Shown here: positions 2,477 through 15,007 of the stretch, piece by piece | Numbering within the stretch: the stretch's first letter is position 1 | Layout: each line of letters starts with the position of its first letter | Source: Candidatus Minthosoma equi | GTDB lineage: Bacteria > Bacteroidota > Bacteroidia > Bacteroidales > Bacteroidaceae | Direction of reading: 5' to 3' | NCBI GenBank assembly: GCA_018064885.1 | Contig: JAGHUI010000012.1 | Location: 1-38,267, forward strand | Length of the DNA: 38,267 nt | Made by a program: the position numbers and the translations under genes | The notes under the pieces: generated by a model | What the model was told of the DNA's origin: nothing | What the model saw: only the letters and a program-made list of their open reading frames with translations | Database searches by the model: none

Positions 2477-3502
2477 ATGATCAACGACAATAAAGGACAG
2501 ATAGTGCTCTTCCAGACAGAGGACGGACAGACGAAACTTGAGGTGCAGCTTCAGGACGAAACGGTGTGGCTGACCATCGACCAGATGGCAGAGCTCTTTC
2601 AGCGAAACCGTTCGACCATCAGTCGCCACATCAAACGCATTTACGATGATGGCGAACTTAGCAAAGACACGACATGTGCAAAATTTGCATGCGTCGTAAA
2701 CCGAGGCATTCGTGGTATGATTGATGACGAGCTGGATTTCTACAACCTCGACATGATCATCTCCGTTGGCTATCGTGTCCACTCCCATCGTGGAGTGCAG
2801 TTCCGCATGTGGGCAACAGCCGTCCTGAAGGAATACCTCAAGAAAGGATTCGTACTGAACGACGAACTGCTGAAACGCGCTGGTGGAGGCAACTACTTCG
2901 ACGAATTGCTCGAACGAATCCGCGACATCCGCAGCAGCGAGAAAATCTTCTATCGCAAAGTTCTTGCCATCTATGCCACCAGCATCGACTACGACCCTCG
3001 CGTGGAAACCACTCAACTCTTTTTCAAGACCGTGCAGAACAAAATGCACTTCTCTGCTCATGGACACACGGCAGCCGAAGTAATATACGAGCGTGCTGAT
3101 GCCGAGAAGGACTTCATGGGGCTCACCTCGTGGACAGGTCCTCTGCCTCGACGCACCGACGCCGAGACTGCCAAGAACTACCTCACCGACGAGGAACTTG
3201 ACCTGCTCAACCGCATCGTCAACCTCTATCTCGAATTTGCCGAACTTCAAGCTAAAGCGCACATCCCGATGTACATGAAGGATTGGGTACAGAAACTTGA
3301 CGACTTCCTTCGCCTCAGCAACCGTGATCTCCTCACCCATGCTGGTAAGATAAGTGCTGAGGTCGCCAAACAGAAAGCCGATGCAGAGTACGACAAGTTC
3401 CGCGAGCGAACCAAATACGAACTCTCACCTGTAGAGATACACTTCATCGACCAGTTTGAAGCTGAACAAAAACGGCTGAAGGACAAAGGGGATAAGAAAT
3501 AA
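2477..3502 (+). CDS. RhuM family protein
   Basis: This 341-aa protein has the whole RhuM layout: an N-terminal helix-turn-helix-like part (VWLTIDQMAELFQRNRSTIS, then HIKRIYDDGEL), the conserved core YNLDMIISVGYRVHSHRGVQ and FRMWATAVLKEYL, and a long helical C-terminus. RhuM was named from a Salmonella pathogenicity island, but homologues are widespread in defence and mobile loci and often sit inside type I restriction operons. The N-terminal segment suggests DNA binding, and the molecular role is not established. It is co-directional with the Bro-N gene 16 bp upstream. A large antisense reading frame over it is a shadow. Confidence 0.88.
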   Translation: MINDNKGQIVLFQTEDGQTKLEVQLQDETVWLTIDQMAELFQRNRSTISRHIKRIYDDGELSKDTTCAKFACVVNRGIRGMIDDELDFYNLDMIISVGYRVHSHRGVQFRMWATAVLKEYLKKGFVLNDELLKRAGGGNYFDELLERIRDIRSSEKIFYRKVLAIYATSIDYDPRVETTQLFFKTVQNKMHFSAHGHTAAEVIYERADAEKDFMGLTSWTGPLPRRTDAETAKNYLTDEELDLLNRIVNLYLEFAELQAKAHIPMYMKDWVQKLDDFLRLSNRDLLTHAGKISAEVAKQKADAEYDKFRERTKYELSPVEIHFIDQFEAEQKRLKDKGDKK

Positions 3503-3750: not shown

Positions 3751-5289
3751 ATGACAGAACAAGAACTTCAACAACACCTGAAAACTCACTACCCAAAGGA
3801 GAACGAGTGGTGCGAGTGGAAGGAATTCAAGAACCTGAAGAACGACTTCAATGGCAAGGAGAAGGATGACGTCGTCAGTTACGTCTCGGCTCTTGCCAAC
3901 ATGGAGGGCGAGCATCTGGTCATAGGTGTTGTTGACAAGACGCTGGAGATTGTGGGTACCGACACCTACAACTACGATGTCGATAAGGCTTGCCTCCGTC
4001 TGAGAGATCAGTGTGCCAATTTGCCTACAGAGGGTTTGCAGATTGAGGAGTTCGTTACTGATGACACGCAGAAGACGGTATGGGTTATCCATGTGCCTAA
4101 ACACATGCCCAAATTGCCTGTCTATGCTCATAGCAAAGCATTCCAGCGCTTGAAGGATTCGCTCATAGAGCTGACCGTTGAACGCCGTAATGCTATACTC
4201 GAAGAGGTCAGTATGAGCGCGGATTGGTCGGCGCAGACGGTAGAGGATGCAACGCTCGACGACCTTGAAGAGATGGCTTTGGCGATGGCTCGTTTCCAGT
4301 TCAAAAAGGTTCACCCTGACCTCAGCTCTGACATTGACGGCTGGGACGACATGAAGTTGCTCACTCATGCTGGCGTGGCTTCACATGGCAAACTGACACG
4401 CGCAGCACTTGTCCTGTTGGGAAAGAGCAGTTCCGCAATACTTCTCAACCCATCCGTGGTGCAAGTCACATGGATACTAAAGAACGAGGACGGCAGAAAG
4501 ATTGCCTACGAGCACTTCGGAATGCCGTTACTGACGAATGTAGATCGCATACTTTCCAAGATACGCAACCTCACCCTACGCGAACTGCCAGGCGGAACCC
4601 TTTTCCCCGACATTGAGAAACAGTATGATGACTACAGCATACGCGAACTCCTCCACAACTGCATCGCCCATCAGGATTATACGATGCAGGAACGCATTGT
4701 GCTGATCGAGGAACCAGGGTATCTGATATTCTCCAACGGAGGTTACTTCCTGCCCGGAACGCTCGAAAATGCCCTTGAGAATGGAGGTCCGCAGAAGTAT
4801 TACCGCAACTACTGCCTCTGTCAGGGCATGGTCAATTTCAACATGATAGACACCATCGGTCACGGCATAGAGAAGATCTTCTCTGAGCAGAAACGTCGCA
4901 AGTGTGCCTTGCCAGAATACACAATCAACAATGTGTCGAAGGAGGTCAGCGTGAAGGTGTATGCACGTCAGGAAAACATCAGTAAAGAGTCTTTCATGAC
5001 GTCAGAAAAGAGCGAGCAGCATCAGGATAACGTCAGAAAAGAGGCTTTTGTGACGTCTGAAGCATCAGGAAAAGTCCAAGAGAACATCAGGATAAATATC
5101 AGTAAAAACCAGGATTTCATCCTCCTTGCCCTGCAGCGCGACCCTCACATGACAATTCCTGAACTATCAGAACTGGTAGGAATCTCGGAAAGAAACATCT
5201 CTGAGAATCTGAAGAAACTACAGGCACAAGGATTGCTGGAGCGTGTGGGTGGTAGAAAGAAAGGATATTGGAAAGTGAATCAAAGATAG
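3751..5289 (+). CDS. AlbA_2 domain / ATPase-like transcriptional regulator with C-terminal winged helix
   Basis: This 512-aa protein has three parts. Residues about 18-140 form an AlbA_2 (Schlafen-like) nucleic-acid-binding domain (EWCEWKEFKN, then VVSYVSALANMEGEHLVIGV). The middle carries the HATPase_c_4-like block RELLHNCIAHQDYTMQERI, EEPGYLIFSNGGYF and later DTIGHGIEKIF. The end (about 450-512) is a winged helix: MTIPELSELVGISERNISEN, then LKKLQAQGLLERVGGRKKGY. Such proteins are annotated as ATP-binding transcriptional regulators and are frequent in islands with restriction systems; the role is inferred. A hydrophilic linker at about 410-450 contains a degenerate duplication (ISKESFMTSE and VRKEAFVTSE). 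Its stop is followed after a few bases by the second 84-bp repeat. Confidence 0.85.
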   Translation: MTEQELQQHLKTHYPKENEWCEWKEFKNLKNDFNGKEKDDVVSYVSALANMEGEHLVIGVVDKTLEIVGTDTYNYDVDKACLRLRDQCANLPTEGLQIEEFVTDDTQKTVWVIHVPKHMPKLPVYAHSKAFQRLKDSLIELTVERRNAILEEVSMSADWSAQTVEDATLDDLEEMALAMARFQFKKVHPDLSSDIDGWDDMKLLTHAGVASHGKLTRAALVLLGKSSSAILLNPSVVQVTWILKNEDGRKIAYEHFGMPLLTNVDRILSKIRNLTLRELPGGTLFPDIEKQYDDYSIRELLHNCIAHQDYTMQERIVLIEEPGYLIFSNGGYFLPGTLENALENGGPQKYYRNYCLCQGMVNFNMIDTIGHGIEKIFSEQKRRKCALPEYTINNVSKEVSVKVYARQENISKESFMTSEKSEQHQDNVRKEAFVTSEASGKVQENIRINISKNQDFILLALQRDPHMTIPELSELVGISERNISENLKKLQAQGLLERVGGRKKGYWKVNQR

Positions 5290-6261: not shown

Positions 6262-7863
6262 ATGACAAAAGAAGAAATCTTCAACATACTTAACGAACTT
6301 ACATCATGCTATTCCTTTGGAAGAATACTTGGTTACATCCAATTTGAAACTGGAATGGGAGCTGTCGGCTTGCTTCAAAATAGCCAATTAGCTAACGACA
6401 AACGTTTGATGGCATCGGAAAAGAATTTGCTGACCGGAATGTGGGTAAACAACATTGATTTGAGCAAGACATCATGGAATGTTCATGAAGACCAAAGCAC
6501 CTTAGATAAGCTGTATTCAATAATGGATGACCTTCACAATTGTTATCAATACACAGAAGAAACGACTTTTGAAGAGCAAATCAAGGAAATTGCTTTCTAC
6601 GAAGGTGACGAAGGCTTTGATAAGCAGTTCGTTAGATTTGCCATGAAGAAATATGGTCATGCAGAACTAAATTACTGCCTTGAAAAACACTATTCGCTTT
6701 CTGTTTCACGCTTTGCATCCACATACTCAAAGATGAAACGACTCGTTGAGATGCAAATTTCACGTAGGATTGAAGCTACAAAAAACAAAAGCCACCGCTA
6801 CATTTCACCACTGAATGCATTCACGATCAAAGAAAAAGACTTGATAAAGCATTTCACTCCTGAAGAGCGTATTGTCATTGATACGTTTACAACAGTGTTA
6901 GGTGTTGATCGTGGCGAATCTCCTATAAGGGACATTGCAGATAGAAACGAATATCTTTTCCGACCCATCATCAAACTTCCAAATGACAAAGGACGTTTCA
7001 TCCCTGATTTTAACGCCATCGCAATCGCTTTTAACGAAACTCCAATGTTCTTTATCAGAGATACAAAAGAATTCAAAGAAAAGGAATTGGGACAGATTAT
7101 CGGCGAAGCTGCAGAGGATCTGGTCGTTGATATTCTATGCAAAAGATTTCCAAGTGAGAACATCATTGCGAGAAGAAAGATACGAAAAGCAAAGACAGGT
7201 AACGAGACTTCCGAGATTGATGTGTTGCTTCACGTACCGGAATCCAATGCCGTTGTGGTGTTTCAGGTGAAAAGCAAGCGCCTTAAAGAATCATCCAGAC
7301 AAGGCAACAAAAATGAACTATTCAAAGATTACGAAGCTGCTATAAATAAGGCTTACGAACAGGGATTGGCATGCATTGACTGCTTAAAGCACTATTCTGA
7401 TTATGAGAGCATAAAGGATTTGTCTTTCATGAACTCGCAAACACGTTTCTTTGCACTTTGCATTACACTCGATCAGTATCCTACAATTACGACCCAAGGA
7501 CATTGCCTATTGTCACCTTCTTATCGGCCAGATACTCCACCAATAACGATGACGGCACTAGATCTTGATGAAGTTATGGACATGATTCCACGTGACGAGT
7601 TCATAAACTATCTCTCCGTAAGAACAGAGCTTATAAATTCAGACATTCGTGGATTGAATGAAATGTTCTATATTGGCGCTTATGTTCTTAACGCATTAGA
7701 AGGACCCGTTTACATCACGAAGAAAAATATCACTCGTGAACATGCAATCTTTGGAGATTACATTTATAACGAATTCATTCAAAGAGGACGTAAAATTAAC
7801 TCCTTTGATGACATTGCTCAATTCATCAGCAAGAATCCTATTCCAACTATTCAATGCCAATAG
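6262..7863 (+). CDS. hypothetical protein with PD-(D/E)XK-like nuclease core
   Basis: I do not recognise this 533-aa protein as a named family. Residues about 280-340 fit a restriction-endonuclease-like core: a helix with E282 and E285 (IIGEAAEDLVVDIL), then D320 in SEIDVLL, a 14-residue gap, and QVK (Q335, K337) in the strand VVVFQVKSK. Q in place of the central E is accepted in many active members. The N-terminal 200 residues are mostly helical with no known motif; residues after 350 are mixed. There is no signal peptide or membrane segment, so it is cytoplasmic. It is followed 6 bp later by a PIN-like gene in an obvious operon and sits between an accessory island and a restriction-modification operon. 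I infer a nuclease in a defence system, not proven. Confidence 0.7.
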   Translation: MTKEEIFNILNELTSCYSFGRILGYIQFETGMGAVGLLQNSQLANDKRLMASEKNLLTGMWVNNIDLSKTSWNVHEDQSTLDKLYSIMDDLHNCYQYTEETTFEEQIKEIAFYEGDEGFDKQFVRFAMKKYGHAELNYCLEKHYSLSVSRFASTYSKMKRLVEMQISRRIEATKNKSHRYISPLNAFTIKEKDLIKHFTPEERIVIDTFTTVLGVDRGESPIRDIADRNEYLFRPIIKLPNDKGRFIPDFNAIAIAFNETPMFFIRDTKEFKEKELGQIIGEAAEDLVVDILCKRFPSENIIARRKIRKAKTGNETSEIDVLLHVPESNAVVVFQVKSKRLKESSRQGNKNELFKDYEAAINKAYEQGLACIDCLKHYSDYESIKDLSFMNSQTRFFALCITLDQYPTITTQGHCLLSPSYRPDTPPITMTALDLDEVMDMIPRDEFINYLSVRTELINSDIRGLNEMFYIGAYVLNALEGPVYITKKNITREHAIFGDYIYNEFIQRGRKINSFDDIAQFISKNPIPTIQCQ

Positions 7864-7869
7864 CCGACT

Positions 7870-9117
7870 ATGCTCAAAATCTACCTTGACTGGAACTGCA
7901 TCACTCATAGCAAAGACCGATTCCCATACATCCTTGAAATAGCAGAAGAATGTGCCAACCGCTTTATATTTCCATACTCCAATGCGCACGTTCGTGACCT
8001 GCTTGTAAGCCGTAAGAGCAATAACGAATACTATCAGCAAGATCTTGACCTGTTGACGCGCATCTGTGGCAAACACTTTCTGCATTTTGACGGAAAAGTC
8101 ATGCAGCCAATGTTTGGGTTGCCACAGGATTTTATTGACGAATGCGGTGACTTGTTGGAGATTATACAGAAAACGGAATTCATCAATCCTACCATTTATC
8201 AGCAGATAAAAGAGCACACACGCAGTTATATCCCAAAAGATCTGTATAAGCGCATTCAAGGGGCAGAACCGAAAGATGCTATCAAGCTGATTAACCATTA
8301 CATCCAGACAATCCAACCCGACAAGAATCTGCACTGCATTATGGAGGAGTCAAATCCTTTCAAACAGCTCTCTACTATTGAATCGCAGTTCAAAAGCGTA
8401 TGCCTAGGGCTTGACATTTTCGGTTTCCATCCGGAAAAGAAGAACAAGCAGATTACAAACATCGATGCTGATGCCAGTCATATCTTCTATGCTGCTCATT
8501 GTGACTACCTTGTGAGTGATGATAAAGGAATGATAGCCAAAGCAAAGGCGCTCTACTACACATATGGGTTCGCAACAAAGGTTATACGTCCAGAAGAACT
8601 GAAAGAAGTTGTGGATGAAGAATACGCAAAAGGCTTTAATCTTAGCTACATCGTGGATTGCATCGATACCTATGGGAAACCGCGCCATGAAGCTGACGGA
8701 GCACATTACCGCTTGATGCCAACACCAATATTCGGATTGTTCAATGCTTGTATGATGTTAGACGAGAAATTTTGTTATGAAGGCAAATTAAAATCAGCCA
8801 TCTTCTGCTATTCGTTCAATAGCACGCCATACCTGTACTATACTGAAATGGAACGTTTCTTTGACTTTGTCCGACAGATATTGCCACATTCGGAACTCGA
8901 TAGATTTGAGAAAGAATACGTCACGCCAATAACCTCCCGCGATGTACAAACTACAGCTACGGCACGTTACCTCATTGATGTCCCAGATTTAGATTTAGTG
9001 ATTCAATTCCTAAGTGACCCTCTTGCACCGGTTCCATGTCCGATGATGCAGATTGTAGTAGGTGATAATTGCAAGCAGGCAATAAAGAAATTGACGAAAA
9101 GTACTGATTCTAATTGA
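7870..9117 (+). CDS. hypothetical protein with PIN-like nuclease domain
   Basis: The 415-aa product opens with LKIYLDWNCIT, a beta strand ending in an acidic residue (D7), as in PIN-fold ribonucleases. A second acid (D43) follows in AHVRDLL. IDADASHIFYAAHCDYLVSD supplies D199/D201 and D217/D218 at the positions of the later metal-binding acids of PIN domains. The insert between them (about 50-190) is long and helical. Residues 240-415 form an extra unrecognised domain (PRHEADGAHYRL, LDVPDLDLVIQF-like strands). The gene starts 6 bp after the PD-(D/E)XK-like gene, so the two are surely co-transcribed. A metal-dependent RNase role is inferred from the fold. It is not a standard VapC, being three times longer and lacking a small antitoxin. 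Confidence 0.68.
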   Translation: MLKIYLDWNCITHSKDRFPYILEIAEECANRFIFPYSNAHVRDLLVSRKSNNEYYQQDLDLLTRICGKHFLHFDGKVMQPMFGLPQDFIDECGDLLEIIQKTEFINPTIYQQIKEHTRSYIPKDLYKRIQGAEPKDAIKLINHYIQTIQPDKNLHCIMEESNPFKQLSTIESQFKSVCLGLDIFGFHPEKKNKQITNIDADASHIFYAAHCDYLVSDDKGMIAKAKALYYTYGFATKVIRPEELKEVVDEEYAKGFNLSYIVDCIDTYGKPRHEADGAHYRLMPTPIFGLFNACMMLDEKFCYEGKLKSAIFCYSFNSTPYLYYTEMERFFDFVRQILPHSELDRFEKEYVTPITSRDVQTTATARYLIDVPDLDLVIQFLSDPLAPVPCPMMQIVVGDNCKQAIKKLTKSTDSN

Positions 9118-9142: not shown

Positions 9143-9196
9143 ATTGAGTTAAAATCTCAATAATCTTTATTATTTGAGAAATTCTTATTATCTTTG
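9143..9196 (+). promoter_or_regulatory. promoter (-7 TATCTTTG at 9189-9196) overlapped by TTGAG/CTCAA half-sites
   Basis: Three half-sites lie just before the -7 box: TTGAG at 9144-9148, CTCAA at 9156-9160 and TTGAG at 9174-9178. The first two form ATTGAG-7 bp-CTCAAT. The last two form a longer, nearly perfect inverted repeat (TCTCAATAAT against ATTATTTGAGA, 9155-9179). A protein bound there would cover the -33 region. This fits autoregulated restriction-modification expression, which is inference. The TTG at 9174 cannot be the real gene start because it precedes the -7 box. Confidence 0.55.
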
Positions 9197-9245
9197 TACT
9201 CTTAAATGTTATTTCAGGTTTACACCTGTCGTCACCAATAGAATC

Positions 9246-12200
9246 ATGGCAGAAAACAAATACATACAAACTCCTTCACAATCTATCCAGAAGTCCTATC
9301 TCAGACAGCCTGTTGAGACAGGTATACTGGAGAAATTCCGTTCGCAGTTGTCAATACTCCTGAAAGAGCTTAACCCTACAGACATTGAGGAGGCAAACAA
9401 GGGGCGCGTCAAAACGTTCCTTGAGCATACTCTCTGGCCGTCTGCATTGTATGAGATCAATGCTGTTGGTAGAACCGACCTTACAATCAAGGATAAAAAC
9501 CTTGAGCGTAACGTTGTGCTGTTTGAGTTTAAGAGAGTCAACAGTTTGGAGATGGTGACAAAGGACGATATGGTCAGAAAGGGTATGTTTGAACTTATTC
9601 TGTACTACATCCTCGAAGAGCATGAGAACAAGAATAACAACATCAAGCATCTCATCCTGTCTGACGGATACAGGTATTTCGTTTTTGAGAAAGGATTGTT
9701 CTGGGATTTGTTTGGTAAAGACAAGAAACTGGTTCATGACATTATCTCGTCAGAGCATACAAGCGGAGAAAAGCGCGAATACATTTACACTCAGATTATC
9801 AAGCCCAAGGTTGAAGCCGTAAAGGACAAGTTGGAATATACATTTGTTGATTTAGATTCATTTACGAGGGACATTGAATCTGAAGACATTGTGTCTAAGC
9901 CAAAATTCAAGGCTCTGTATAAGTTATTCTCACCGACACACCTACAAAAACTGCCCTTCTCTGAAGACCATAATACACTTAACAAGCGTTTCTACACGGA
10001 ACTTCTCTACATCATGGGATTAGAGGAACGTGGACAGAAACACCAGATTCAGCGTCTTAAGGAGGAGTGCCAGCAGCCATATTCCCTCTTTGAGCAAGCC
10101 TATGCTATGCTTGCCGACTATGAGTTTAATGAAACTGCAATTGATGCAAATGAGGATAAGCGCTTTGAGACAGCCCTTGGTCTTGTGATTGTATGGATCA
10201 ACCGCACGCTCTTCATGAAACTTCTTGAGTCACAGCTCATAGCCTTTAACTCAGATAGGAAGAAGTTTGCCTTCTTTGAGAAGATAACAGATTTTGGCAT
10301 GATGCACTATCTGTTCTGCAAGGTGATGGCCATTCCAGAGAATGAGCGTTCGGAAGAGATGAAGAAGAAATTCGGTGAAGTGCCGTACCTCAACAGTTCG
10401 CTCTTTGAACTTACAGCCATTGAGAAGAAATTCTTCCCCGTGAGCAGCCTTCGCAATAGTGAAGTGGAAATAATGAAGGGAACTTGTCTAAAGAACAAGA
10501 AAGACAAGGTGGCGACAGGCAAGATCGGCATCCTTGACTACCTGAAGCAATTCCTTGACAGCTATGACTTCGGTGCTGATGCTGGCGAAAGCGGAAAAAC
10601 CATCATCAATGCTTCTGTGCTGGGCCTCATCTTTGAGAAAATCAATGGCTATAAGGATGGCTCGTTCTTTACCCCTGGTTACATCACGTCCTATCTCTGC
10701 CGTGAGACATTGAGACGTTGCGTTACGGACAAGTACAATGCCAAGTACGGAACAAGCTACAGTGATTTTGCAGAACTGGCATACGACTTCGACCATACCG
10801 ACAAGGTAAGGCGCGATGAAGTAAACAACATGATCAACAGTATTCGCGTCTGCGACCCTGCTGTGGGTAGTGGTCACTTTGTGGTGTCTGCACTCAACGA
10901 GTTTATTGCCATAAAGCGTGAACTGAATGTATTGAAAACTATTGACGGCAAGCGCTTCAAGTATCGTGTTGACATCGAGGACGACGAACTTGTTGTGACT
11001 GATGCTGATGGTGAGCTGCGTTACAATCCTGACGATGCTGAAAGCCAAATCGTACAGGAAACGCTTTTTGAGGAAAAGCGCACAATCATAGAGAACTGTC
11101 TTTTCGGTGTTGACATCAACCCCAATAGTGCTGAAATCTGCCAGCTCCGTCTCTGGATAGAGTTGCTGAAGCATGCCTATTACCAGCCAAAGGGATCGGA
11201 TGGTAAGCGCCACCTGCAAACCCTTCCGAACATCGACATCAACATCAAGTGTGGCAATTCGCTGGTAATGAAATACACACTTGATGCTCCTATCGATAAA
11301 GTGCTGCGTGGCGCAAATGTCACTATGGGTGAATACCGCAAGCATGTAGCCGACTACAAGAACTGCCCATCAAAAGAAAACAAACGTACCGTAGAACAAG
11401 ACATTGCCCAGATAAAGTCAACACTTGATGAGGGTTATGACAAGGAAACGTCCGAATACAAGAAATGGGTGAAAGTATGCTCCGACATTCTTGCACGTGA
11501 TAATTCCCTGTTTCCTCCTGAAGAAGAAGAGACAAAGGTTTTGATAGACTTGCGTAAGAAAGAGGCAAAGCTTCGTCAGGCACTTGAGGAGGTTTCTTCT
11601 CGTCATGCCCGACTTAAAGCCTTTGAGTGGCGTTACGAGTTCCCAGAGGTGCTGAACGACAAAGGACAGTTCGATGGCTTTGAATGCATCATTGGCAATC
11701 CTCCTTATGGTGTTTCTATTCAGAACGAATATCGAAAGACAGTGGAGGAGAAGTACGAACATGTGCCGGATTATAAAATATGCCTATATTTCATCTCGCT
11801 TGGACAGAAACTGCTGAAGAACAATGGTTATCTGGCTTATATCATACCAAATTCTTGGTTGTTTAATCAGAATGCGCAGAATTACCGAGAGACATTGAAT
11901 AAAATAGATGCTGATCATCCAAGTGCATGGACAATTCATGAACTTCTGGATTGCACGAATATTCAGATTTTTGACTCGGCAACGGTACGAAATACCGTAA
12001 TGATAATGCAAAAAAGCCTATCTCCATCAGAGATGATATTCTATAAGAATACGCGTGACCTGATTGAGAGTCAGGATGATGAGGATGCCGACGGAAAGAA
12101 GCAGAAGGACGATGGCAAGATTCTTTTCGGCAAGTTGGTGGCTCGTGAAACACGTTCAATTTCCTTCAACGACATAATAGCCGATTTTGCTCAGAACTGG

Positions 12201-13007
12201 GGATTGGCTTTCTTCTTGACCAAAGATGAAAATCGAGTAGTTGGTAAAATTGAAGAGAATACTGCCACCATAGAATCTGTATTCGAGGAAATATCGCAAG
12301 GTATCATTGCATACGATAAACTTAAAGGTGTAATCAAGTGTGATATAAAAAATAGAATTTATCATCATGAAACTTACCATGAAGGTTGTAAACAATGGTT
12401 GCGAGGTTTTGACGTGAACAAATATAAAGTTACTTGGAATACGGATCCTGCCAAACGTAGTGACAAGAAAACCGATAGGGAAATATACGTAGAATATGAC
12501 AAAATACCTAAGGCTCGCAACAAGAAGTATTTTATGGGTAAACGAATGTTGATTCGTGAAATTACCAATCCTTCTCTATTTGCAGCAATCACGGATGAGG
12601 AGTTGTATCATGATCCTGCAATTCTTGTTGTAAAGGATAGCGAGAAATATTCTCTGGAACTTGCATGTGCAATATTGAACTCTCAACTAGCTGCCTTCTA
12701 TCATTTCCGTCACTCTCCAAAAGCGACGAAGGGAGCATTTCCAAAGATTATGATAGCAGACGTAAGGTCTTTCCCTCTCCCTGTTGTCAATGAAGACAAT
12801 AGAGAAATTGCAGAGAAAATTGAAATACTCTTTGGTGACATACAGGATGAAGTTAAGAAGCCTGAATATGATAAAGATTCAATCAAAAGTTTACAATGGC
12901 AGATTGATTATTGGGTATTCAAACTTTATGGTATCGAAGGTGCCGACATTAATATAATCTCTGAGGACTTTATGGAAACGAAGCCTTCTGATATAAATAT
13001 AGAATAA
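9246..13007 (+). CDS. type IIG-like restriction-modification fusion (Eco57I-type methylase)
   Basis: One 1253-aa chain combines cleavage, methylation and DNA recognition. The N-terminus has a PD-(D/E)XK site: D78 (GRTDLTI), then E94 and K96 (VVLFEFKR). The centre holds the SAM-binding motif DPAVGSGHFV (about residue 536), the FGVDINPNSAEICQLRLWIE block (about 620), and the catalytic NPPYG motif (about 818), as in gamma-class N6-adenine methylases. The last 300 residues (YHHETYHEGCKQWLRGFDVN and RNKKYFMGKRMLIREITNPS) resemble a TaqI-like specificity domain. I chose the ATG at 9246 over the TTG at 9174 because the -7 box lies between them. The product should protect self DNA and cut unmodified DNA. 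The recognition site cannot be read from sequence. Confidence 0.9.
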   Translation: MAENKYIQTPSQSIQKSYLRQPVETGILEKFRSQLSILLKELNPTDIEEANKGRVKTFLEHTLWPSALYEINAVGRTDLTIKDKNLERNVVLFEFKRVNSLEMVTKDDMVRKGMFELILYYILEEHENKNNNIKHLILSDGYRYFVFEKGLFWDLFGKDKKLVHDIISSEHTSGEKREYIYTQIIKPKVEAVKDKLEYTFVDLDSFTRDIESEDIVSKPKFKALYKLFSPTHLQKLPFSEDHNTLNKRFYTELLYIMGLEERGQKHQIQRLKEECQQPYSLFEQAYAMLADYEFNETAIDANEDKRFETALGLVIVWINRTLFMKLLESQLIAFNSDRKKFAFFEKITDFGMMHYLFCKVMAIPENERSEEMKKKFGEVPYLNSSLFELTAIEKKFFPVSSLRNSEVEIMKGTCLKNKKDKVATGKIGILDYLKQFLDSYDFGADAGESGKTIINASVLGLIFEKINGYKDGSFFTPGYITSYLCRETLRRCVTDKYNAKYGTSYSDFAELAYDFDHTDKVRRDEVNNMINSIRVCDPAVGSGHFVVSALNEFIAIKRELNVLKTIDGKRFKYRVDIEDDELVVTDADGELRYNPDDAESQIVQETLFEEKRTIIENCLFGVDINPNSAEICQLRLWIELLKHAYYQPKGSDGKRHLQTLPNIDINIKCGNSLVMKYTLDAPIDKVLRGANVTMGEYRKHVADYKNCPSKENKRTVEQDIAQIKSTLDEGYDKETSEYKKWVKVCSDILARDNSLFPPEEEETKVLIDLRKKEAKLRQALEEVSSRHARLKAFEWRYEFPEVLNDKGQFDGFECIIGNPPYGVSIQNEYRKTVEEKYEHVPDYKICLYFISLGQKLLKNNGYLAYIIPNSWLFNQNAQNYRETLNKIDADHPSAWTIHELLDCTNIQIFDSATVRNTVMIMQKSLSPSEMIFYKNTRDLIESQDDEDADGKKQKDDGKILFGKLVARETRSISFNDIIADFAQNWGLAFFLTKDENRVVGKIEENTATIESVFEEISQGIIAYDKLKGVIKCDIKNRIYHHETYHEGCKQWLRGFDVNKYKVTWNTDPAKRSDKKTDREIYVEYDKIPKARNKKYFMGKRMLIREITNPSLFAAITDEELYHDPAILVVKDSEKYSLELACAILNSQLAAFYHFRHSPKATKGAFPKIMIADVRSFPLPVVNEDNREIAEKIEILFGDIQDEVKKPEYDKDSIKSLQWQIDYWVFKLYGIEGADINIISEDFMETKPSDINIE

Positions 13008-13009
13008 AT

Positions 13010-13210
13010 ATGGCGGACAATAATGGTTCTAAGGCAAACATTTACCCATGCATAGTTTGTGGACATGAGTCGTACGTGAACGAACAAGGATACTATGAAT
13101 GTCCTGTATGCGGCCACTACGGATGGGAAGGTGAAAGTTATACTGGCTATCCTGATAGAACGTTAGAAAAGTCAAAATCAAAATATGAACGACAAACAAC
13201 AATGGTTTGA
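13010..13210 (+). CDS. small zinc-ribbon protein (CPCC-like)
   Basis: The 66-aa protein has two CxxC knuckles, CIVCGH and CPVCGHYGWE, about 17 residues apart, the layout of a zinc ribbon resembling the cysteine-rich CPCC family. The ATG lies two bases after the stop of the restriction-modification gene, and the 3' end overlaps the next gene by 26 bp in another frame. It is therefore tightly embedded in the operon. Its role is unknown; zinc ribbons of this size often bind nucleic acid or a protein partner. Confidence 0.7.
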   Translation: MADNNGSKANIYPCIVCGHESYVNEQGYYECPVCGHYGWEGESYTGYPDRTLEKSKSKYERQTTMV

Positions 13211-14003
13211 GACACAGTGCCTGAAGCAGGGAATCTGTGCAGAAGATATTTTCGTGGTGGGCGATTACGCTACCAACAAGGAGGGTGACTTCCTCTACTC
13301 GGTGATACACGAGGAGGGGGAAGACACCATGAACCATGTAGCCGCTTGCGACCTTGCTGATTGCGAGAGCGACTATGCTGAGTGGCTGCTGAACCTGATG
13401 CAGAACCTCGAAGAAGGTTGCCGTGAGGGCGACATGATACTCACAACACGTTCGGAGAGTGATTGGCGTGAGATAGCCAAGGTGTTCAAGGAGTGCATCT
13501 GTCGCAATCAGGAGTTCAACGAGGAATGGCGCAACGAGTTGATGCAGAATCCTGCTGTAGGCGTTTACGAACCGGATGCGTCTGTGCAGATTGACTCTCG
13601 CATGGGCAAGTACCTCGGAATGCGCAATATAGAGCATACTTCCTGCGAGAACGTTCCTGCCGTCATTCTGCCTCGCGAATTTGAAGGAATGGGTGGCTAT
13701 CGCTTTGCACTAAAGGTGGTTGATGTGGATAACTTCGTTGAGATTTACTCCAATATTCAGTATGATGGTCAGCATAAGCCTTTCCGCATCCTTGCCGAAT
13801 TGGAAGAGGAGGTTGAGAAGGATTGGAAGAACGAGAGCAAAGTGCTGGAAGAGCACTACATTGACACGTATGATGAAGGTTTTGGTCCTGGTCATGGTGC
13901 TGACATGGCATGGTTCAGATTCTCGCACTTTGAGGTTGATAATGAGATTGATGACCGTTATCGTACCTTCTATGCTTGTTACACCATCAATTTTGACAAG
14001 TAA
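13185..14003 (+). CDS. hypothetical acidic protein in the restriction-modification operon
   Basis: I do not recognise this 272-aa protein. It is acidic, with no signal peptide, membrane segment or nuclease motif visible. Stretches such as DIFVVGDYATNKEGDFLYSV and the C-terminal YRTFYACYTINF look like ordinary mixed alpha/beta protein. The ATG at 13185 overlaps the end of the zinc-ribbon gene by 26 bp, pointing to coupled translation, and the stop is 8 bp before the next gene. Position suggests an accessory role for the restriction enzyme or an independent defence function carried on the same transcript. Confidence 0.75.
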   Translation: MNDKQQWFETQCLKQGICAEDIFVVGDYATNKEGDFLYSVIHEEGEDTMNHVAACDLADCESDYAEWLLNLMQNLEEGCREGDMILTTRSESDWREIAKVFKECICRNQEFNEEWRNELMQNPAVGVYEPDASVQIDSRMGKYLGMRNIEHTSCENVPAVILPREFEGMGGYRFALKVVDVDNFVEIYSNIQYDGQHKPFRILAELEEEVEKDWKNESKVLEEHYIDTYDEGFGPGHGADMAWFRFSHFEVDNEIDDRYRTFYACYTINFDK

Positions 14004-14011
14004 ACAGCCGA

Positions 14012-15007
14012 ATGTTTATTGATACACTAAAACAGTATCTCGCAGAACTTGAACAGACGAAGGTGGGAGGCAGAAGTGTCTCTCGCCTCGTTCTTGACGT
14101 GCGTTCGGGTAAGGTGGAAGTGGAATTTGCTGAAGATAATAGCGCAGACGAGGGGTTGCGTCTTGAACGATACGAACGTCACGATGCCACCAAGATACAG
14201 GGATGGAAAGACGATTTCGTGAAGTGGGAACGCAAACATCACGGACGCATAGGCGAACAGGATTACAAGGAGCGTGTGGTGAAGGAACTACAGTTGCTGC
14301 TTGGTTCTACATTCCTTGTGCCAGATGAAGATTTGCTGAACGCGCAGAAGATTCAGTCGGCAATGGATGAACTCGACAAATGGCAAATTGGTCGCGAACA
14401 TAAAGTGAAGTTCGCTTTGTTGTGCGACCTTGTGGAGTACCAAGATGGTTATTTCAGCTTTGATGAATTGGACGCCATTGAAGACTATCTGGAAGATAAT
14501 CATCACAGCCTGAGCGCCAAGGATATTGATGCTTTGCTACGCTTCAAGACCATGATGTGCCTCTGTTATGAACGTACACACAAGAAGGAGGATTTCGTGG
14601 CTCTGTCCGATTCGCGTAAGGAGATTATGCATGACATTCTGCGACTCATAGGCAAAGGCGATTGGATTTCGCCAGCCAGCGTTGACGGCATACGACTGAT
14701 GTTGAAGACCGTGTTGGGAGTTGTGCCTGGTGCGCTGACTACAGATGATGCTCAACGGTCAGCTTTGTTATGGAAACTACTCGAACAAGGCAAGGGCGAT
14801 CGTGTGAAGGTGACGATGCAGAACCTTATCGGCTACTTCATTTCGCGCAAGATGCTTTCGGAAGGTTCGCCAGCACAGAACAAGGCTTTCTTTGGAAACG
14901 ACGAAGGTTATTCGAATATAGACAAGGGTATCAACGAGAACGAAATGTCGAATGGTTTCAAAGCCATACTGCCACTCCTGGACAAGTATATTCCCAAGAA
15001 ACGATAA
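14012..15007 (+). CDS. hypothetical protein, last gene of the restriction-modification operon
   Basis: This 331-aa protein matches no family I know. It is rich in charged residues and predicted helix; the middle (QIGREHKVKFALLCDLVEYQ, then FDELDAIEDYLEDNHHSLSA) and the C-terminus (GFKAILPLLDKYIPKKR) are the most regular parts. There is no signal peptide, membrane segment or obvious catalytic motif. It follows the previous gene by 8 bp and is followed by a strong terminator at 15058, so it closes the operon that begins at 9246. Confidence 0.75.
   Translation: MFIDTLKQYLAELEQTKVGGRSVSRLVLDVRSGKVEVEFAEDNSADEGLRLERYERHDATKIQGWKDDFVKWERKHHGRIGEQDYKERVVKELQLLLGSTFLVPDEDLLNAQKIQSAMDELDKWQIGREHKVKFALLCDLVEYQDGYFSFDELDAIEDYLEDNHHSLSAKDIDALLRFKTMMCLCYERTHKKEDFVALSDSRKEIMHDILRLIGKGDWISPASVDGIRLMLKTVLGVVPGALTTDDAQRSALLWKLLEQGKGDRVKVTMQNLIGYFISRKMLSEGSPAQNKAFFGNDEGYSNIDKGINENEMSNGFKAILPLLDKYIPKKR

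Follow-up and report, generated by a model that had tools for sequence, protein, structure and literature searches.

A coupling of DNA restriction to RNA-level suicide was proposed in 2012, with PrrC as the worked example (PMC3506569). PrrC stands beside the PrrI type I restriction-modification (RM) system and, according to PMC3506569 and PMC2610378, is a ribonuclease (RNase) that the restriction system silences and an anti-restriction factor sets free. Two further papers (PMC10853773; PMC12839542) deal with Dnd and BREX loci and propose that stand-alone RNases of the PIN and HEPN classes, as well as NERD-type nucleases, act there as suicide back-ups. Here we describe a locus of Candidatus Minthosoma equi in the light of these systems. 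The window, i.e., the whole stretch of DNA that was analysed, is the complete 38,267-base contig JAGHUI010000012.1 (C12); the genome assembly comprises 3.5 Mb in 114 contigs. The genes in question are P1 (533 amino acids (aa); 6262..7863, + strand), a predicted deoxyribonuclease (DNase) related to NERD/SEC-C proteins, lacking SEC-C and with a model resembling the N-terminal half of Upx, and P2 (415 aa; 7870..9117, + strand), a PIN-domain protein that is probably an exchangeable single-gene module. The two open reading frames (ORFs), of these lengths and 6 base pairs (bp) apart on one strand (gap 7864..7869, +), are as an earlier, sequence-only reading had reported, and judging from the gap they are likely to share a transcript. 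We regard both as genes rather than chance ORFs because homologues over most of their length keep the key residues. The reading that we favour, at about an even chance, is that the locus is composite and that P2 is an exchangeable PIN module serving as a back-up RNase behind DNA-targeting defence genes.

The PIN-domain protein P2 and its partners

The PIN fold that the sequence-only reading had assigned to P2 is confidently predicted by AlphaFold2 (AF2; predicted local distance difference test (pLDDT) 87.7). VIA-align matches cover residues 1–254, and their named rows are mostly PIN-type; the top Foldseek matches include unrelated folds. The predicted PIN domain occupies these residues (7870..8631, + strand), contains a helical insertion, and carries D7, H40, D43, D201, H204, and D218. 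An additional alpha/beta C-terminal domain, also noted in the earlier reading, is predicted outside the VIA-align matches at about residues 255–415 (8632..9114, + strand). Members of the PIN domain superfamily share three to four conserved acids. In an alignment of 79 P2 sequences of at least 380 aa (the window and some near-identical copies included), D7, D43, and D201 were invariant and D218 was kept in 78, in agreement with the acids singled out earlier, so that P2 combines the fold of the superfamily, in the predicted structure, with its conserved acids. Two further acids named in that reading did not hold up: D199 is an aspartate in just 5/79 sequences and D217 in 14/79, and they are therefore unlikely to be catalytic. 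H40, H204, C211, and K224, which had not been named, were invariant as well (79/79). P2 is most likely an RNase, with RNA as its presumed substrate. The protein had no Pfam or NCBIfam match and a single PADLOC match (PDC-M11A, E 0.025 over 75 residues), which we rejected as a name for P2; none of nine P2 homologues matched any model at E 0.1. In an NCBIfam scan of six homologues, five were without a match and one (L071) had two, far below the cut-offs. A plasmid search with P2 returned one record with a 49-residue match.

Close relatives of P2, taken as those with about 27% identity or more (a cut-off set after the loci had been seen), were located directly behind another gene in 9/9 intact cases, window included, and these genes represent seven partner types. 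Gene calls in the loci were mechanical ORF picks. The intact close relatives begin −7 to 74 bp behind the upstream gene, which encodes DndH in L057 (PADLOC, 1068 bits), a SacI methylase and endonuclease in L058, an 845-aa protein whose GIY-YIG match falls just under the cut-off in L056 (and its homologue in L066), a protein with HSDR_N and DUF2971 in L060, an AbiL-like PDC-M12A/B protein in L061 (homologous in L125), and a type IIG enzyme in L135. A tenth close member, L059, was left out because its P2 frame looks broken; the P2-like match in L059:7001-7717 starts at 7001 and the open frame only at 7175. Neighbours of the more distant homologues include type IIG enzymes (L063, L071, L111, L116, and L119), AAA_13/PDC-S06 proteins (L034 and L087), and a PD-T7-1/PD-T7-5 protein (L096).

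One partner exchange is clear at the DNA level. L056 and L057 are 94.3% identical from 17 bp before the P2 start codon to 47 bp past the stop codon, with no match upstream and 79% identity further downstream, such that near-identical copies of P2 stand behind two unrelated partners, the GIY-YIG-like gene and DndH. We extended this comparison to all pairs of P2 genes that are at least 80% identical in DNA and have 400 bp of sequence upstream, and a boundary was termed sharp if homology was lost within 25 bp of the start codon. Sharp boundaries were found for 20/33 P2 pairs and 4/26 other genes of at least 200 aa (Fisher p 5e-4). This control is too lenient, since 11 of its rows represent genes that immediately follow P2 and whose homology extends upstream by construction.

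The collected loci hold further features of note. In five Flavobacterium loci (L034, L091, L105, L116, and L117), a second gene, of ~320 aa, starts 21–22 bp after the P2-like gene and is included in its homology, with different partners in front. The L034 copy of this second gene was without a Pfam match. L111:7001-7459, apparently the same place as L053, encodes a 152-aa piece that comprises the N-terminal part of the PIN protein only and overlaps the end of a type IIG gene with DUF7149/DUF7814. The type IIG gene at L119:2168-5851 contains an in-frame match to a Y1 transposase model (residues 604–703).

The predicted PD-(D/E)XK protein P1

The proposal that P1 has a PD-(D/E)XK-type core was borne out firmly by its residues and weakly by its predicted structure. 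NERD-type members of this group share the signature E ... D ... (Q/E)xK, and in an alignment of P1 with 15 relatives this signature was present in 16/16 sequences: E285, D320, and K337 were invariant, and position 335 was Q in 14 and E in 2. The second glutamate named earlier, E282, is E in only 3/16. The AF2 model is of low confidence overall (mean pLDDT 56.6), with 8/13 ten-residue blocks of residues 271–400 at 70–83. It predicts an alpha-beta-beta-beta-alpha-beta core at residues 273–402 (7078..7467, + strand; H273-293, E301-309, E315-325, E330-337, H350-376, and E395-402) that includes E285, D320, and Q335-x-K337. Structure matches of this low-confidence model include N.BspD6I, FokI, HindIII, Can2, and McrBC, as well as the N-terminal half of Upx (Upx residues 32–537, at 8–10% identity), to which P1 is possibly related. 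Relatives of P1 match Pfam NERD (PF08378) and often carry SEC-C. The NERD cut-off was passed by three of seven scanned relatives, the other four falling below it, and P1 itself had no match in Pfam (NERD included), PADLOC, or NCBIfam. P1 is most likely a NERD-type PD-(D/E)XK nuclease, a DNase attacking invading DNA, with DNA as the presumed substrate.

The nearest full-length relative of P1 that we found (L164; 525 aa, 36% identity) likewise lacks SEC-C. It starts 1 bp behind a gene (L164:6644-7600) that scores just over the DUF5677 cut-off, and its locus has no P2-like gene; the DUF5677 gene is possibly an alternative partner of a P1-type protein. Viral scans with P1 and with profiles A6 and A5 yielded no relatives; profile A7 retrieved seven viral loci of the P1 family, and a P2-like gene was absent from all seven. 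A comparison of profile A4 with A7 was set aside as trivial, since A4 contains the A7 rows too. Phage records, searched with P1 only, gave no P1 match.

Proposed mechanism and rival explanations

In the favoured reading, P1 would attack invading DNA and P2 would most likely remain quiet while its partner works; a partner that senses a phage, or is blocked by one, would unleash P2, and the released enzyme would cut RNA so that the infected cell stops. This model follows the logic of PrrC/PrrI; activation of P2 by its partner and an abortive outcome are presumed in it. The PIN fold, the invariant active-site acids, the place behind diverse DNA-targeting genes, and the clear partner exchange, all computed here, agree with such a role. 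A PIN gene that recurs with little change behind DndH and a GIY-YIG-like gene, and in related versions behind SacI, type IIG, AbiL-like, and NERD-type genes, would open the coupling of restriction to RNA suicide to direct test, with a single effector, many partners, and a common read-out.

The sequence-only reading had instead taken P1 and P2 for an undescribed two-gene system and had named a lack of conserved pairing as one outcome that would overturn it. Such a dedicated nuclease system, acting as one complex, would agree with the 6-bp gap, the shared strand, and the nuclease type of both proteins. The locus also serves as a warning that two genes lying side by side in a single genome say little in favour of a two-gene system. 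The pairing proved not to be conserved. We collected 89 P2 loci, of which 87 had a P2-like ORF (L055 and L122 did not); removal of six duplicates and the window left 80, of which 70 include 1.7 kb or more of sequence upstream of P2. A P1-like gene upstream of P2 on the same strand was present in 0/80. The only other collected locus with both kinds of gene, L103:7001-10879, has a P2-like gene and a 783-aa NERD-type gene in convergent orientation, and the matches in L114 and L117 are to the SEC-C tail only. In a phylum sample of 395 genomes, six others had a P1 relative and seven others a P2 relative, with no overlap. In a family sample of 399 genomes, there were likewise seven other P2 genomes, none of which was among the at least eight other genomes with a NERD-core P1 relative in the matches listed, counting only matches that cover the nuclease core and with at most two candidates scored per genome. 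A family-wide P1 count of 352/399 was rejected since most of the listed matches cover the SEC-C tail only, mostly in frames of ~1,100 aa that we take to be SecA. Moreover, the nearest full-length relative of P1 adjoins a DUF5677 gene. Both genes keep other partners elsewhere, so they do not form a fixed pair; with no second pair in any search made, we rejected P1–P2 as a new two-gene system and hold a dedicated complex to be quite improbable.

A rival with more in its favour holds that P2 acts autonomously, in defence or as a toxin, that it simply gathers with other genes in defence islands, and that it is functionally independent of the preceding gene; we consider this possible though rather unlikely. 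Several observations speak for it and weigh against a back-up role. In the P2 family as a whole, a same-strand upstream gene lies within 100 bp in 28/68 cases, compared with 229/517 control genes. Because the family as a whole does not exceed the controls, we dropped the claim of a family-wide operon bond; tight coupling would apply, at most, to the near subfamily. Several homologues are set at a distance or have neighbours outside defence: the next relative after the close members (L136, 22% identity) is 161 bp from its upstream gene, and the close neighbours in L083 and L090 are an ABC transporter and a subtilase gene. The coupling of all nine intact close members to a restriction or defence gene, which argues for a link, depends on the post hoc identity cut-off. 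Similarly, all six type IIG-like genes among the 874 genes of the 80 loci adjoin P2 on the same strand, which again argues against autonomy, yet this adjacency is partly built in, each locus being a short stretch around P2. With the stricter boundary control (4/15, after removal of the 11 rows), the Fisher p value rises to 0.06. A single cluster of seven loci supplies 17 of the 20 sharp pairs, and sharp pairs occur in 3/7 P2 clusters and are missing from the other four. Clustering of mobile genes in islands could account for part of the pattern. The boundary test supports exchange of P2 in three clusters and not as a rule. It is also conceivable that P2, instead of acting as a suicide effector, is an RNase with a regulatory role, which would trim the mRNA of its own operon and hold down the dose of the DNase. 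VapBC modules control their own operons, which we count in favour of this idea, and P2 of the close subfamily sits behind a potentially toxic DNase gene; one module would, however, need to recognise unrelated mRNAs, and we regard this role as very unlikely.

A bolder form of the back-up reading would make P2 the founder of a partner-agnostic "plug-in" effector, a PIN RNase module that recombines, as one gene, into the position behind nearly any operon for DNA-cutting defence in Bacteroidota and responds to a cue shared by its partners; this we put forward as a doubtful, unlikely extension. The shared cue might be DNA ends, a phage anti-restriction protein, or a common surface. If true, P2 would give each partner a second, RNA-level line of defence.

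Genomic setting and comparison with described systems

The defence setting of the locus was supported, and the restriction gene said to adjoin it was confirmed. Downstream of P2 lies a type IIG restriction-methyltransferase (9174..13007, + strand; DUF7149, DUF7814, Eco57I, and TaqI_C), for which an in-frame ATG near 9246 is the likelier start as judged from the translation; similar type IIG enzymes are neighbours of P2 homologues in other loci. It is followed at 13185-15007 by two genes (272 and 331 aa) without a Pfam match, the second with a weak JetB match in PADLOC (E 0.033). Upstream of P1, and outside the module, is a gene for a protein with Schlafen AlbA_2, HATPase_c_4, and winged-helix domains (3751..5289, + strand); Schlafen AlbA_2-type proteins appear as a BREX back-up effector in PMC12839542. 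The start of the window carries PDC-S04 (SoFic-like), DUF3990, and RhuM (PDC-S05) genes at 25-693, 1300-1809, and 2477-3502, respectively. An Rfam scan of the window gave nothing at gathering score, and promoter and terminator counts were about those of shuffled sequences.

Among described proteins, VapC toxins share the PIN fold and conserved acids with P2, which is about three times longer. A small antitoxin gene of the VapBC type was not found beside P2: its neighbours are the 533-aa P1 and the 1277-aa type IIG frame, and no ORF of at least 60 aa fits between P2 and either of them. For P1, NERD/SEC-C proteins (e.g., L009, 709 aa) align over residues ~1–480 with invariant catalytic residues, whereas P1 is without their SEC-C C-terminal region and lacks a Pfam NERD match of its own. 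Upx, which was reportedly first described in the 2020 Gao paper, has a chain of 1212 residues (PDB 9wuf), so that P1 with its 533 aa does not have the full Upx architecture. PMC10855318 groups Upx under nucleic-acid degradation. Among the profile matches of P1, 9wuf was absent, its presence in the searched sequence set being unconfirmed, and the absence of a PADLOC match for P1 is to be read with the inclusion of a Upx model in PADLOC likewise unconfirmed. A literature search that covered few subscription papers found no published account of the P2 PIN family and no paper on NERD with the SEC-C motif.

PrrC differs from P2 in domain content, having an N-terminal ABC NTPase domain, whereas P2 has a PIN domain and no ATPase match. 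The proposed Dnd and BREX back-up effectors are close as well, being PIN RNases or NERD restriction endonucleases that flank a DNA-defence operon; in L057 the PIN gene directly follows DndH. Some PIN proteins in the supplements of PMC10853773 and PMC12839542 may belong to the same family as P2. Compared with those effectors, the P2 family has several unrelated partners, including type II and type IIG RM, AbiL-like, and NERD-type proteins. The back-up concept is already published; what would be new here is a PIN family without a significant match in the model libraries scanned, its unrelated partners, and their clear exchange in a few clusters.
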